Source: Flavisolibacter sp. (lineage in GTDB: Bacteria; Bacteroidota; Bacteroidia; Chitinophagales; Chitinophagaceae). From it: 32,185 bases of DNA. The translations under genes and the position numbers were made by a program. This document shows positions 5,108 to 9,714 of the stretch, one piece after another. Within the stretch, counting starts at the first letter, position 1, and every line of letters begins with the position of its first letter. The stretch lies in the NCBI GenBank assembly GCA_028288675.1, contig JAQBNG010000030.1, forward strand, positions 1-32,185, in the 5' to 3' direction. A model generated the notes under the pieces. It was given only the letters and a program-made list of their open reading frames with translations, was not told the DNA's origin and made no database searches.

Positions 5108-6232
5108 TCAATTCACTTTTACCATGTAAACGAAATCTGTAATCTTTTGCACCTGTTTTGTTCTGTCAATACCTTTTATACTTGAGGTTACAGGCAATCT
5201 TATATTCCGGAAAGTTGTATCGCTTTTTTGTAGCTGGCTTAGGGCGTCATAAATATATTTCGATTGAATAGCAAACACAGCCCCATCCAGTGAGGTCTGC
5301 TTTGAACTTAGTACGGCAATTACTTCCCCTTTACGGTTAATTATCGGGCTGCCACTATTACCCCTGTTAGCATCAATAGAAATTTGAACGGCCAGCGTAT
5401 CACCATTATAACCAGTTTTAGCCGACAGGTAACCTTCGCCGTAAACAATATCAAAATCACTACGTGGAAAACCTAATGAAAAGACTGGCTCTGCTATATC
5501 GGTGCCCGATTTTTTTATTGCATAAGGAATGGATGACAGCGTTTTAAAAGCCGTATCAATAATTTTTAGAATTGCAATATCACGTTTGGCATCAACCCAA
5601 ACAATACTTGCTTTGAAATCCTTTCCGGAAGCATTTTGCACTGCTACATAGGTAGCTCCTTCTATAACATGAGCATTGGTAACTAAGTAGCCTTTGGCAT
5701 CTACTAAAAAGCCGGTACCACCTGTTGTGTACTTTATATCGGGAGGTGCATCAGTTCTTTTAATATGATTGATAACTGTAGTGATCTCTTTGTCCTGCTT
5801 CTTATTCTGAACTTCGAGGTTGTTGATTTTACTGTTTAAAAGTTGTACGTCCTGGGTTGTGTTTTTACCGGGAGAAAATGACCACACCATAGCACTGATG
5901 CTTAACGCCATAATACCCGCAACGGAAGCAGCAATGGCAGCCGTGCGTTTGTAGCGGTTGAACAAATAAACCACTTTGGCTCCGCCTTTCAGTTTTGGAG
6001 ATTGAATCAATCCCTTTTCGGCCAGGTGAATGTGGGTTTCATCAAGAATGTTTTTAAACTGGCGGGTATCTTCAAACCGGGCAATCTGCTGCAGAAAAAA
6101 AGTATGTTCTACCACGGCCTGGTCTATCTCAGGGTTGCTTTTACGCAAGGCCTCGAAATATACCCTTTCGTTCGGGTTCATTTCGCCGCCAATGTAGCGT
6201 TCAACAGCTTCCAAAATTTGTAAATCCTCCAT
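5108..6232 (-). CDS. Membrane anti-sigma-like / trypsin-like serine protease fusion
   Basis: 374 aa from the ATG at 6232 (a GTG at 6235 is also possible). Residues 1-50 resemble the cytoplasmic start of anti-sigma factors (pattern ERYIGGEMNPNERVYFEAL) but contain no Cys, so there is no zinc-binding site. A single membrane segment lies at about 97-118, then a heptad-like coiled-coil stretch (about 125-158), then a periplasmic chymotrypsin-fold protease. The catalytic triad is visible: His188 in TNAHVI, Asp218 in KRDIAIL and Ser293 in GNSGSP. There is no PDZ domain. The start overlaps the sigma gene stop by one base (TGATG), so the two are translationally coupled. The likely role is a membrane regulator of the ECF sigma with its own protease domain; this is inference from order and topology. 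Confidence 0.85.
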   Translation of the reverse strand: MEDLQILEAVERYIGGEMNPNERVYFEALRKSNPEIDQAVVEHTFFLQQIARFEDTRQFKNILDETHIHLAEKGLIQSPKLKGGAKVVYLFNRYKRTAAIAASVAGIMALSISAMVWSFSPGKNTTQDVQLLNSKINNLEVQNKKQDKEITTVINHIKRTDAPPDIKYTTGGTGFLVDAKGYLVTNAHVIEGATYVAVQNASGKDFKASIVWVDAKRDIAILKIIDTAFKTLSSIPYAIKKSGTDIAEPVFSLGFPRSDFDIVYGEGYLSAKTGYNGDTLAVQISIDANRGNSGSPIINRKGEVIAVLSSKQTSLDGAVFAIQSKYIYDALSQLQKSDTTFRNIRLPVTSSIKGIDRTKQVQKITDFVYMVKVN

Positions 6233-6798
6233 CACAGTGACTCATTTTTATATTGCGTGAAAAATAATTTCTTTAAGCGTACAAGGCATTTATACTTCTG
6301 CGTTTTGGCATTTTCGGCGTTGGTGTATCCAAAGCTGCCGGCAATTTCCTGCATATTCTTTTTTTGCATATAGAAAGCCTCTAATAAACTTCTGCAAGGT
6401 TCACCTAAACCCCCCATCGCCTTCTCCATCATTTTAAATTCAGTGTCCCGCTTTGCGTGATCTTCCATATCATCATCTACTATTACCAAATCGTCAGTGT
6501 TCTCGTGAAGGCTGTAGCGAGATTGCTGCATAAGCCTTTTTAGCCACAACCTCCTGCAAACTGAATAGACGAAAGTTTTTATCTGGCAGTTTAATTCAAA
6601 GGACCCGGACTGAACTTTTTGATATAAAACAATCATTGCTTCCTGGAAAACATCTTTTGCATCTTCCGTGCTGCCGTTATTATTTATTATTAGCGCCTGT
6701 ATCAGGTTAAAATTTTCTTTGTAGATGGTATCAATCGCTTTTTTATCGTTACGGGCTAATCCCTGCAATAAGGCCGTTTGATTATGCTCTGCTTTCAA
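6232..6798 (-). CDS. ECF-type RNA polymerase sigma factor
   Basis: About 188 aa, the size of ECF sigmas with only regions 2 and 4. Region 2 includes the DAKDVFQEAMIVLYQKV core-binding helix. Region 4 has the helix-turn-helix around MQEIAGSFGYTNAENAKTQKYKCLVRLKK. There is no ATG near the start. A TTG at 6804 opens the frame and a second TTG at 6798 sits 7 nt after AGGAG (6810-6806), so I prefer 6798. The predicted transcript start (about 6805) lies at or after that AGGAG, so the ribosome site is uncertain. First gene of an operon with the protease fusion, and preceded by a motif shared with the divergent lipoproteins. Confidence 0.9.
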   Translation of the reverse strand: MKAEHNQTALLQGLARNDKKAIDTIYKENFNLIQALIINNNGSTEDAKDVFQEAMIVLYQKVQSGSFELNCQIKTFVYSVCRRLWLKRLMQQSRYSLHENTDDLVIVDDDMEDHAKRDTEFKMMEKAMGGLGEPCRSLLEAFYMQKKNMQEIAGSFGYTNAENAKTQKYKCLVRLKKLFFTQYKNESL

Positions 6799-6811: not shown

Positions 6812-6840
6812 TTAATACTGTAATGGGGGAAAAGTAACCC
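6812..6840 (-). promoter_or_regulatory. Putative ECF promoter of the sigma/protease operon
   Basis: On the minus strand GGGTTAC (6840-6834), 15 nt, then GTATTAA (6818-6812). The same two blocks with the same 15-nt gap occur on the plus strand at 6873-6901. The size and spacing fit ECF -35/-10 promoters. It does not match the housekeeping TAnnTTTG box. Autoregulation by the sigma is the natural inference. Confidence 0.65.
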
Positions 6841-6872
6841 AAAGATGGCGGTAAAAAAATTTTTTAAGGAAA

Positions 6873-6901
6873 GGGTTACTTTTTTTCAATGGCGGTATTA
6901 A
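6873..6901 (+). promoter_or_regulatory. Putative ECF promoter of the lipoprotein cluster
   Basis: GGGTTAC (6873-6879), 15 nt including a T7 run, then GTATTAA (6895-6901). It is 20 nt before the first lipoprotein ATG (6922). It matches the minus-strand copy before the sigma gene in both blocks and in spacing. The two GGGTTAC boxes also form an 11-bp inverted repeat (6830-6840 with 6873-6883) around an A7T6 palindrome, which could bend or be bound as one site. Confidence 0.65.
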
Positions 6902-6921: not shown

Positions 6922-7182
6922 ATGAAGAAACTTTTGCTGATTGTTGCTATTGCCTGCCTTGCTTCTTGTAACGAGACGGCAAGGGTTGAAACGGAGTTGG
7001 ACACTCTTGGAAAGAAGATAGACACCCTGACAAAAAAAATTGAAGATTCGAAAGTGGCAGATTCCATTAAATCAAAAGGCACCAGGTTGATGGACTCTAC
7101 TAAATCCAAAGGCGGTCGTCTCTTAAATAGTTTGGATGATAAACTGAAGAGTATAAAAATTAAAAGAGATACAACAAAATAA
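6922..7182 (+). CDS. Small lipoprotein 1 (coiled-coil-like)
   Basis: 86 aa. A lipoprotein signal with lipobox LASC places the lipidated Cys at residue 16. The mature part begins CNETARVETELDTLGKKID and has a heptad-like pattern (LDTLGKKIDTLTKKIED), so a short coiled coil is likely, followed by Lys/Ser-rich sequence with two SKG repeats (KSKGTRLMDS, KSKGGRLLNS). It ends in DTTK. Unknown function; probably outer-membrane anchored and facing the periplasm. First of three lipoprotein genes apparently under the ECF-like promoter. Size and C-terminal Lys recall Braun-type lipoproteins, but no homology is claimed. Confidence 0.8.
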   Translation: MKKLLLIVAIACLASCNETARVETELDTLGKKIDTLTKKIEDSKVADSIKSKGTRLMDSTKSKGGRLLNSLDDKLKSIKIKRDTTK

Positions 7183-7789: not shown

Positions 7790-7819
7790 AGCTGTCCTGT
7801 TTTCAGGGCAGCTTTTTTT
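7790..7819 (+). terminator. Intrinsic terminator of the lipoprotein cluster
   Basis: A 10-bp stem (7790-7799 with 7804-7813, one G-T pair), a TTTT loop and a run of seven T. It follows lipoprotein 3 by about 67 nt. A second, looser inverted pair (CGATTGC/GCAATCG) lies just upstream. Confidence 0.85.
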
Positions 7820-8034: not shown

Positions 8035-9714
8035 ATGGCTACATTCGGTGAGCTTGGACTCAATGAACAGATATTAAAGGCAGTTGAGGAACTCGGCTAT
8101 ATACAACCAACTCCTATCCAGGAAAAAGCAATACCTGTGCTATTGTCAGGTACCAAAGATTTAATTGGACTTGCACAAACGGGCACGGGTAAAACCGCCG
8201 CTTTTGGTTTGCCCCTGTTACAGTTAATTGACATAGAAAAAAAACATCCACAGGCATTGGTCGTTTGTCCTACACGGGAGCTCTGCATGCAAATTGTAAA
8301 TGAGCTGGAACTTTTTAAAAAGCATTCAAAAGGTATAAATGTAGTGGCTGTTTACGGCGGTTCCTCCATCTCAATGCAAATCCGTGATATACGTCGCGGA
8401 GTGCAAATTGTGGTAGCAACCCCCGGCCGTTTAATTGACCTTATAGAGCGCAAGGCAATTAATCTTGAAGAGATCAGCTACGTTGTGCTTGACGAGGCCG
8501 ACGAAATGCTGAACATGGGTTTCCAGGATGATATAGAATTTATTTTAAAGAATACGCCAAAACGCGAAAGCACCTGGTTGTTCAGCGCCACTATGCCAGC
8601 CGAGATCCGTAACGTTAGTAAGCGTTACATGAAATCTCCGGAAGAGATTACCGTGGGTAAGAAGAATACTGCTAATAAAGACGTAGATCATCAATTTGTA
8701 GTTACCTCGGCGCAACACCGTTATGAGACACTGAAGCGCATCATTGATTTCAACCCGGGAATGTATGGTATCATCTTTACCCGGACAAAATTGGATGCAC
8801 AGGAAGTTGCTGAAAAATTAACAAGAGAAGGATATGATATTGATGCCCTGCACGGCGACCTTACGCAGCAGCAGCGTAACAAAGTAATGGATGAGTTCAG
8901 GGAGAAAACCTTGCAGCTTTTAATTGCGACAGACGTTGCAGCACGTGGTATTGATGTAGTAGGCATTACTCATGTTATTAACTACGAGTTGCCTGATGAT
9001 ATTGAGGTTTACACTCACCGTAGCGGCCGTACAGGCCGTGCCGGTAAAACAGGTGTGTGTCTTTCTATCGTTCACACCCGTGAAACTGGCCGCATCCGCC
9101 AGATTGAACGTATGGCACAGGTTCCGTTCAATAAGCTGGAAATTCCAACAGGTAAAGATGTTTGCCGCAAGCAATTCTTTTACTTTATGGATAAATTATT
9201 ATCAACTGACATTAGTCATGGCGATTATGAAACTTACCTGCCTATGCTCTCCGAAAAGTTTGCGGACGTAAGCAAAGAGGAAGTATTAAAGAGAGTGGCA
9301 GCACTTGAGTTTGACCGCTTTTTAAAATACTACGAAAACTCTGAAGACCTGAATGCCCGTGAACGCAGCCGCGATGACAGGGGCAGGCAACAGGAAGGAA
9401 GAGGTGAAAGGACTTCTGATAGAACACGTGATACCCGTGGCCGCGACCGCGAATATGGTGGCGGTGGTAACAGTACCCGCCTGTTTGTGAACCTCGGTAC
9501 AAAAGATGGATTTTATAAAGCAAGCTTCCTGCAATTTATTCTGGATATGAGCGATTTAAGCAAAGAGGTTTTAGGTCGTATCGATATGAAAGAAATGAAC
9601 TCGTGGATTGAAGTGGAAAAAGGGGCGGCAGCTAAAATGATCGGTGCCGTTGATGGTAAGAAGTATAAGGGTAGAAGAATACGGATGAATGAAGCCGATT
9701 CAGTAAGGCGATAA
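8035..9714 (+). CDS. deaD: DEAD-box RNA helicase with DbpA-type RNA-binding domain
   Basis: ATP-dependent RNA unwinding, probably in ribosome assembly or RNA decay. Helicase motifs appear in order: Q motif PTPIQ, Walker A AQTGTGKT (47-54), PTRELC, TPGR, DEAD (about 152-155), SAT (about 184-186), IIFTRT, ATDVAARGIDV and HRSGRTGRAG (about 329-338). A basic Arg/Asp/Gly-rich linker (about 445-480, many RGR/RDR) leads to a C-terminal RRM-like domain of the DbpA type (about 484-555: RLFVNLGTKDGF...GRRIRM). This is the CsdA/DeaD layout. 559 aa, intact, monocistronic, with a terminator 40 nt after the stop. Confidence 0.96.
   Translation: MATFGELGLNEQILKAVEELGYIQPTPIQEKAIPVLLSGTKDLIGLAQTGTGKTAAFGLPLLQLIDIEKKHPQALVVCPTRELCMQIVNELELFKKHSKGINVVAVYGGSSISMQIRDIRRGVQIVVATPGRLIDLIERKAINLEEISYVVLDEADEMLNMGFQDDIEFILKNTPKRESTWLFSATMPAEIRNVSKRYMKSPEEITVGKKNTANKDVDHQFVVTSAQHRYETLKRIIDFNPGMYGIIFTRTKLDAQEVAEKLTREGYDIDALHGDLTQQQRNKVMDEFREKTLQLLIATDVAARGIDVVGITHVINYELPDDIEVYTHRSGRTGRAGKTGVCLSIVHTRETGRIRQIERMAQVPFNKLEIPTGKDVCRKQFFYFMDKLLSTDISHGDYETYLPMLSEKFADVSKEEVLKRVAALEFDRFLKYYENSEDLNARERSRDDRGRQQEGRGERTSDRTRDTRGRDREYGGGGNSTRLFVNLGTKDGFYKASFLQFILDMSDLSKEVLGRIDMKEMNSWIEVEKGAAAKMIGAVDGKKYKGRRIRMNEADSVRR

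Follow-up and report, generated by a model that had tools for sequence, protein, structure and literature searches.

A conserved pair of back-to-back sites predicted to be promoters of an ECF σ-factor adjoins genes for a probable HtrA-domain anti-σ partner and small lipoproteins in Flavisolibacter and its relatives

In Escherichia coli, the σE envelope-stress pathway combines an autoregulated ECF σ-factor, the membrane anti-σ factor RseA, and the periplasmic HtrA-type protease DegS. UP elements are known from σE promoters, as are effects of T-tracts from the spacers of Bacillus ECF promoters. Anti-σ factors keep a constant inner part while the outer part is exchanged, and in the class I factors it is the outer domain that is variable. 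The text of PMC8103513 describes DegS as a site-1 protease of the HtrA family that has a PDZ domain. Class I anti-σ factors, in the account given in the text of a survey (PMC7406223), combine a cytosolic helical domain with a membrane helix; in that survey only 6% of Bacteroidetes ECFs had a class I anti-σ domain next to them, and the words trypsin, serine protease or HtrA do not occur in its main text. In Pseudomonas syringae, the ECF σ gene hrpL lies divergent from a target of its own, hrpJ, and has a σ54 promoter repressed by HrpL, as the text of PMC5263251 describes. In Flavobacterium psychrophilum, the targets listed in the main text of PMC9723704 for the ECF motif SM6 include T9SS and envelope genes among others.

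The locus presented here lies in a 32,185-nt stretch of DNA from Flavisolibacter sp. (the window), and it shares features with σE/RseA/DegS but is a different system. The window likewise encodes an ECF σ-factor together with a probable membrane anti-σ factor and an HtrA-type protease domain that is predicted to be periplasmic. However, the protease domain sits on the anti-σ-like protein itself, a PDZ domain was not found by Pfam, the promoter sequence differs, and the putative targets are small lipoproteins and a carbohydrate-binding-module (CBM) protein. As in Bacillus ECF and σE promoters, the spacers start T-rich and A/T tracts lie upstream of the –35 boxes. The predicted layout of the partner, with a cytosolic helical domain, a membrane helix, and an outer domain, resembles that of the class I anti-σ factors. 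The window shares with hrpL/hrpJ the divergence of a σ gene from a likely target, although here the same ECF-type site stands at both promoters rather than a σ54 promoter at one of them (PMC5263251). The putative targets are unlike those listed for SM6; the main text on that motif contains no GTTAC string, and its logos, given only as figures, stand outside this comparison (PMC9723704). In the open-access literature searched, we found no description of the motif, of the anti-σ/protease fusion, of the spacing, or of one A/T tract between divergent –35 boxes with spacing classes. The locus brings together a candidate promoter, the putative core of a regulon, and a probable partner, and it recurs in named Chitinophagales, Sphingobacteriales, and Cytophagales. 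That an anti-σ-like protein bears the protease domain suggests a more direct route than that of the RseA/DegS cascade. The spacing classes bear on how divergent promoters share upstream DNA. The features of the locus are as follows.

5108 to 6232, minus strand: 374-aa membrane protein with anti-σ-like and HtrA-like domains (Pfam, model, Foldseek, alignment)
6232 to 6798, minus strand: ECF σ-factor gene with TTG start (TIGR02937, PF04542; start picked by comparison with relatives)
6812 to 6818, minus strand: candidate –10 box GTATTAA of the σ-operon promoter (exact pattern match and locus comparison)
6834 to 6840, minus strand: candidate –35 box GGGTTAC of the σ-operon promoter (conserved at 33/33 protein-selected loci)
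6853 to 6865, no strand: A7T6 tract between both –35 boxes, possibly a shared UP element
6873 to 6879, plus strand: candidate –35 box GGGTTAC of the lipoprotein-operon promoter (conserved at 30/31 protein-selected loci)
6895 to 6901, plus strand: candidate –10 box GTATTAA of the lipoprotein-operon promoter, 20 nt 5′ of the ATG at 6922
6922 to 7182, plus strand: small lipoprotein 1, 86 aa
7214 to 7444, plus strand: small lipoprotein 2, 76 aa
7486 to 7722, plus strand: small lipoprotein 3, 78 aa
7790 to 7819, plus strand: terminator-like site after lipoprotein 3 (10-pair stem at 7790 to 7813, then a T run)

The segment 6812 to 6901 very probably consists of two back-to-back promoters of the ECF σ-factor encoded at 6232 to 6798, with an autoregulated regulon. 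By its sequence, this protein falls among the ECF (group 4) factors, matching σ70 region 2 (PF04542, 28.7 bits, cut-off 24) and the overall ECF profile (TIGR02937, 60.9 bits, cut-off 42.9, residues 21 to 177); Pfam gave no separate match for its region 4. As an earlier note on this DNA had it, GGGTTAC-N15-GTATTAA occurs exactly on both strands at these positions, with 15 nt between the blocks each time. Its view that such a repetition is very unlikely to be due to chance holds as well: with a gap of 13 to 17 the window has no further match, and there were none in 100 dinucleotide shuffles. The 11-bp inverted repeat is likewise present, with AAAAGTAACCC at 6830 to 6840, GGGTTACTTTT at 6873 to 6883, and A7T6 at 6853 to 6865 between them. 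The note had further described blocks and gap as identical and the spacer as different. The former stands, but the spacer does not differ freely, its start being constrained at the loci of relatives selected by protein: on the divergent side the 15-nt spacer begins with C (0.93) followed by T4 (0.93 to 1.00; 29 loci), and on the σ side with T (1.00), A or T, and TT (27 loci). Otherwise, information outside the boxes is low at these loci, except at the base 3′ of the –10 box and at a few A/T positions.

Comparison with relatives shows how closely the two sites follow the σ gene. An orthologue of the σ-factor (at least 40% identity) is present in 33 of the 35 genomes searched in the window’s family, giving 33 protein-selected loci, the window’s own among them (L004–L033 and L126–L128). 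The σ-side site has 0 to 1 mismatches of 14 in all 33, against 4 to 6 for a reversed-pattern control, and the divergent site 0 to 2 mismatches in 30 of 31, against 3 to 6 for its control; L012 and L026, where the contig ends, are excluded from the latter count, and L033 is the single σ locus of the 31 without the divergent site. One locus (L025) carries the σ-side variant GGGTGAC, and one genome (G033) has the σ-factor with both sites at three mismatches of the full pattern and none at two or fewer. Thus, relatives that keep the genes keep the blocks too, the reverse of the loss that the earlier note had named as telling against its reading, and these counts support its suggestion that the σ-factor drives both units.

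The same association was recovered starting from the promoters. When 84,980 genomes were scanned with nothing but the divergent pair, at spacings of 24 to 52, at least 116 stretches were returned, some of which are the same records as relatives found by protein search; L220 matches G014 and L167 matches G011, both from the window’s genus group. Among the matches listed, tblastn (E 1e-4) placed the σ-factor in 114 of 116, its first matched residue 5 to 125 nt from the pair, and the membrane partner in 106 of 116; in the two stretches without the σ-factor (L189 and L260) the sequence ends at the promoter pair. Named hosts among the matches listed are Chitinophaga, Flavisolibacter, Ferruginibacter, Pedobacter, Mucilaginibacter, Larkinella, Spirosoma, and Hymenobacter, and the three that were looked up belong to the Chitinophagales (Flavisolibacter), Sphingobacteriales (Pedobacter), and Cytophagales (Hymenobacter). 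Two Pedobacter loci (L145 and L165) have an extra σ-directed copy of the site besides the divergent pair, and the σ gene may have tandem promoters there.

The distance between the two –35 boxes is not spread evenly. The set used for spacing comprises 148 σ loci; the search expression finds a σ-side site in 146, and the distinct loci number 138. Most come from the scan that sees only spacings of 24 to 52. Measured from GGTTAC to GGTTAC in the 138 loci, the distance is 24 to 26 in six, 31 to 38 in 85, 42 to 47 in 38, and 90 to 122 in six, with three loci lacking a divergent site. A search of 195 family genomes for exact pairs at spacings of 4 to 96, which counts boxes alone irrespective of an adjoining σ gene, found such pairs in 72 genomes: 44 at 31 to 37, 23 at 42 to 47, and five at 70 to 93, with none at 4 to 30, 38 to 41, or 48 to 69. 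In a quick tree of 123 loci (those with a divergent site present and a partner match of at least 100 bits), at least 14 changes occur among the three short classes, and 18 when the long ones are included. The best period is 10.75 bp, with a Rayleigh maximum of 0.68 in 117 loci. None of 4000 Brownian simulations attained this maximum, and the fractions that did so with five, two, and one jumps per unit branch length were 0, 0.009, and 0.32, respectively. Bins 27 to 30 and 39 to 41, chosen post hoc, were empty with all three classes filled in 0 of 4000 simulations under each of the four models; requiring only the empty bins, with at least 100 loci in range, gave 0.001 in the one-jump model and 0 in the others. 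The simulations ignore the scan range of 24 to 52, at whose edge the 24-to-26 class (six loci) sits, and this class was not seen in the family search, which reached down to 4. Collectively, these distributions suggest that the spacing tends to change by about one helical turn at a time, mainly between 31 to 38 and 42 to 47.

The DNA between the boxes bears on the reason. The longest A/T run starts a median of 11 nt from the σ-side box in the 31-to-38 class and 11.5 nt in the 42-to-47 class, and the latter contains two A/T alternations, about 10 to 11 nt apart, where the former contains one. In the six long pairs, A+T amounts to 0.79 and 0.90 at 11 to 23 nt from each box; closer to the box the values are 0.60 and 0.69, and farther out 0.70 and 0.82. 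In 14 isolated promoters, A+T is 0.71 in the segment 10 to 22 nt ahead of the –35 box, compared with 0.60 and 0.62, a modest rise that makes the UP-element reading weaker for them. The A/T tract may therefore be UP-like and, when the promoters are close, common to both. The main alternative is that slippage or duplication of A-tracts in units of about 10 bp, or shared ancestry, made the spacing discrete, with no selection for helical phase. The doubling of the A/T alternation is what duplication of a unit would give, the spacings of 70 to 93 in five family genomes are not all in phase, and a model with very few large jumps renders the Rayleigh statistic unremarkable (0.32). However, bins 27 to 30 and 39 to 41 stay empty in 117 loci despite at least 14 class changes, and the gaps in the 195 family genomes point the same way. 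Since small insertions and deletions already shift the spacing within classes, the gaps should fill in if selection did not act, and we regard this alternative as rather unlikely, though a serious contender.

The gene following the σ gene, with which it overlaps by one base in the window, encodes the membrane partner. An anti-σ-like domain (residues ~1 to 78) is followed by a membrane helix within 85 to 119, a helix at 126 to 161, and an HtrA-like protease domain (~165 to 340). In the predicted structure (mean pLDDT 88.5) these appear as three helices (2 to 72), a long helix with the membrane segment (85 to 119), a further helix, and a chymotrypsin-like domain. The protease domain matches PF13365 and the structures of HtrA1, MucD, and DegS, and the triad H188/D218/S293 is identical in 49 of 49 aligned partners (the window and 48 loci, out of 115 full-length partners). 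Pfam gave no match for a PDZ domain, and after residue 324 the model has two short helices and a strand; because no PDZ domain was found, we call the domain HtrA-like and not DegS.

Several lines of comparison suggest that the partner is probably an anti-σ factor adjoining its σ-factor. The N-terminal 78 residues, modeled alone (pLDDT 94.4), gave 29 Foldseek matches in the PDB, of which 12, including the first six, are chains of σ/anti-σ complexes, with weak E values (0.37 to 9.1); the complexes are those of RslA, MucA, the SigK partner, and RsiW. For five of the 12 chains (three of 8z6g, 6in7_A, and 5wuq_D) a sequence search placed the σ-factor in another chain, and the other seven, from 3hug and 4nqw, we take to be anti-σ chains. 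Pfam gave no match for this domain in the window’s own copy; among 49 members there were 10 weak matches each to hemerythrin and zf-HC2 (best E 0.0011 and 0.006, respectively). A profile of the domain searched against PDB sequences retrieved nuclear receptors (E 0.0006), which we judged to be spurious helix matches. Mean column identity is 51% over the N-terminal 78 residues and 46% over the whole partner. Moreover, in two genomes of other families (G044 and G048), whose σ-factors are 37% and 26% identical to that of the window, a similar N-terminal stretch follows the σ gene (tblastn E 8e-5 and 4e-4), and then a membrane-like segment and a different C-terminal part, which by eye resembles TPR repeats. 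An HtrA-like protease that is merely cotranscribed with the σ-factor, without inhibiting it, would fit the dominance of PF13365 and HtrA/DegS among the matches and the weak E values behind the anti-σ resemblance. That reading nevertheless appears improbable, given an N terminus as well conserved as the whole and matched first to chains of σ/anti-σ complexes, its recurrence before a different C-terminal part at the two distant loci, and a partner found with the σ-factor in 106 of 116 stretches among the matches listed.

AGGTAAC- or GGGTAAC-type sites with 2 to 3 mismatches of 14 lie at the loci of the distant σ homologues in G044 and G048 (L142 at 1102 on the minus and 1533 on the plus strand; L143 at 1701 on the plus strand); sites at three or fewer mismatches are expected by chance at ~1.5 per 5 kb, and these are suggestive by their position only. 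Promoter and sensor may have changed together in these homologues, where GGGTAAC-type sites accompany the TPR-looking partner. In another family (G045), an exact site (L125, 2942 on the minus strand) lies upstream of a 33%-identical σ-factor and points away from it; no site was found on the side of the σ gene itself, and tblastn revealed no protease partner in 6.0 kb.

Unlinked sites extend the candidate regulon. The genome search that the earlier note had called for, over the organism’s own 4.74 Mb, gave three sites for GGGTTAC-N13-17-GTATTA against 0 reversed-pattern controls, the third lying upstream of an ORF with a carbohydrate-binding module. With GGGTTACYWTTTTN9GTATTAA at two or fewer mismatches there were four sites and 0 controls: two lie in the window, a third precedes the gene for a 96-aa AMPK1_CBM protein (Pfam, 31.7 bits, cut-off 26.8), and the fourth stands 39 nt upstream of a lipoprotein-like ORF with a TTG start. 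A spacing-control scan with the full-length pattern yielded five matches, four of them at 0 to 2 mismatches, against five controls at three or fewer. The enrichment for which the note had proposed a test is seen across the 35 family genomes, with 82 sites against 14 reversed-pattern controls at two or fewer mismatches; in 23 genomes of other families the figures are seven and four, sites at σ loci being included in both counts. Neither of the two family genomes that lack a σ orthologue (78% and 62% complete) has a site at this threshold. Of 12 family homologues of the unlinked CBM gene, 11 have a site with two or fewer mismatches, and only a second copy in G005 does not; the homologues of G024 and G026 were identified by tblastn E values of 7e-7 and 7e-9, respectively. 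Outside the family (G036, G045, G047, and G051) none of four CBM homologues has the site, the best showing at least seven mismatches. This site lies 17 to 33 nt before the start codon in eight of nine close homologues that have it, and 93 nt before it in the organism’s own genome. In three close relatives (L109, L110, and L114), a common CTGACAATGCGGCAAA-like stretch stands ~14 to 30 nt upstream of the –35 box of the CBM site. Further small lipoprotein genes have the site in G003, G006, G014, and G021, while several sites with one or two mismatches stand before apparently unrelated genes and could be chance matches.

Alternatively, the sites could serve as operators, bound for instance by a dimeric transcription factor at the GTAACCC/GGGTTAC inverted repeat, while the σ-factor uses other promoters. 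Two boxes inverted about a palindromic A/T tract are a common operator layout, but this reading is very improbable given the single directed two-block sites before CBM genes, mostly at 17 to 33 nt, the –10 block conserved as well as the –35 block with a gap of 15 or 16, and the adjoining σ-factor in 114 of 116 stretches among the matches listed.

Under the promoter reading, we infer from these comparisons and models that holoenzyme containing the σ-factor would bind GGGTTAC, a 15- to 16-nt spacer starting with a pyrimidine and T, and GTATTAA, and would initiate transcription in both directions. Leftward transcription would yield the σ-factor and the putative membrane anti-σ factor with its HtrA-like protease domain in the periplasm, so that in this autoregulation the σ-factor and its brake would be made together. 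Rightward transcription would yield the three small lipoproteins, up to the terminator at 7790, and unlinked members of the regulon would be few, notably the 96-aa AMPK1_CBM protein. The A/T tract between the –35 boxes may act as an UP element for both promoters, and sharing it would explain why helical phase is kept between the boxes. Tentatively, these elements can be assembled into a self-contained envelope-stress switch in which the site-1 (HtrA-type) protease would be part of the anti-σ factor, and a periplasmic signal, perhaps involving the lipoproteins under its control, would lead to cleavage of that factor in cis or by a neighbor. The freed σ-factor would then fire the two divergent promoters, which would share one A/T tract as UP element and so would have been moved in evolution mainly by whole helical turns.

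The position of the σ start codon adds a further feature to this arrangement. The start that best fits relatives is the TTG at 6798, only 13 nt after GTATTAA, so that with transcription starting at the usual distance the leader would be just a few nucleotides long. Across the 138 loci, the first in-frame start, which is not necessarily the one used, is GTG in 83, TTG in 43, and ATG in 12, always within 17 nt of GTATTA, for which the leader computes to 0 to 12 nt if transcripts start 5 to 8 nt after the –10 box; the loci of Larkinella, Fibrivirga, Spirosoma, Rufibacter, Pontibacter, and Hymenobacter have an in-frame ATG 7 to 17 nt after the –10 box. We infer that the σ mRNA would be near-leaderless and weakly translated. 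Leaderless transcripts account for 5.5% of the mRNAs examined in F. psychrophilum, as stated in the text of PMC9723704.

On the lipoprotein side, four terminator-like sites were found in the region scanned, against a mean of 2.5 in shuffles, and the stem at 7790 is the longest, with 10 pairs against 5. A Pfam match of lipoprotein 2 to synaptobrevin (E 0.0008, below the cut-off) was judged to be an artifact of composition. An unusually constant neighbor, a gene that by eye resembles a DEAD-box helicase, lies 3′ of the lipoprotein operon, at 8035 to 9714 of the window, and recurs at roughly half of the remaining loci listed.
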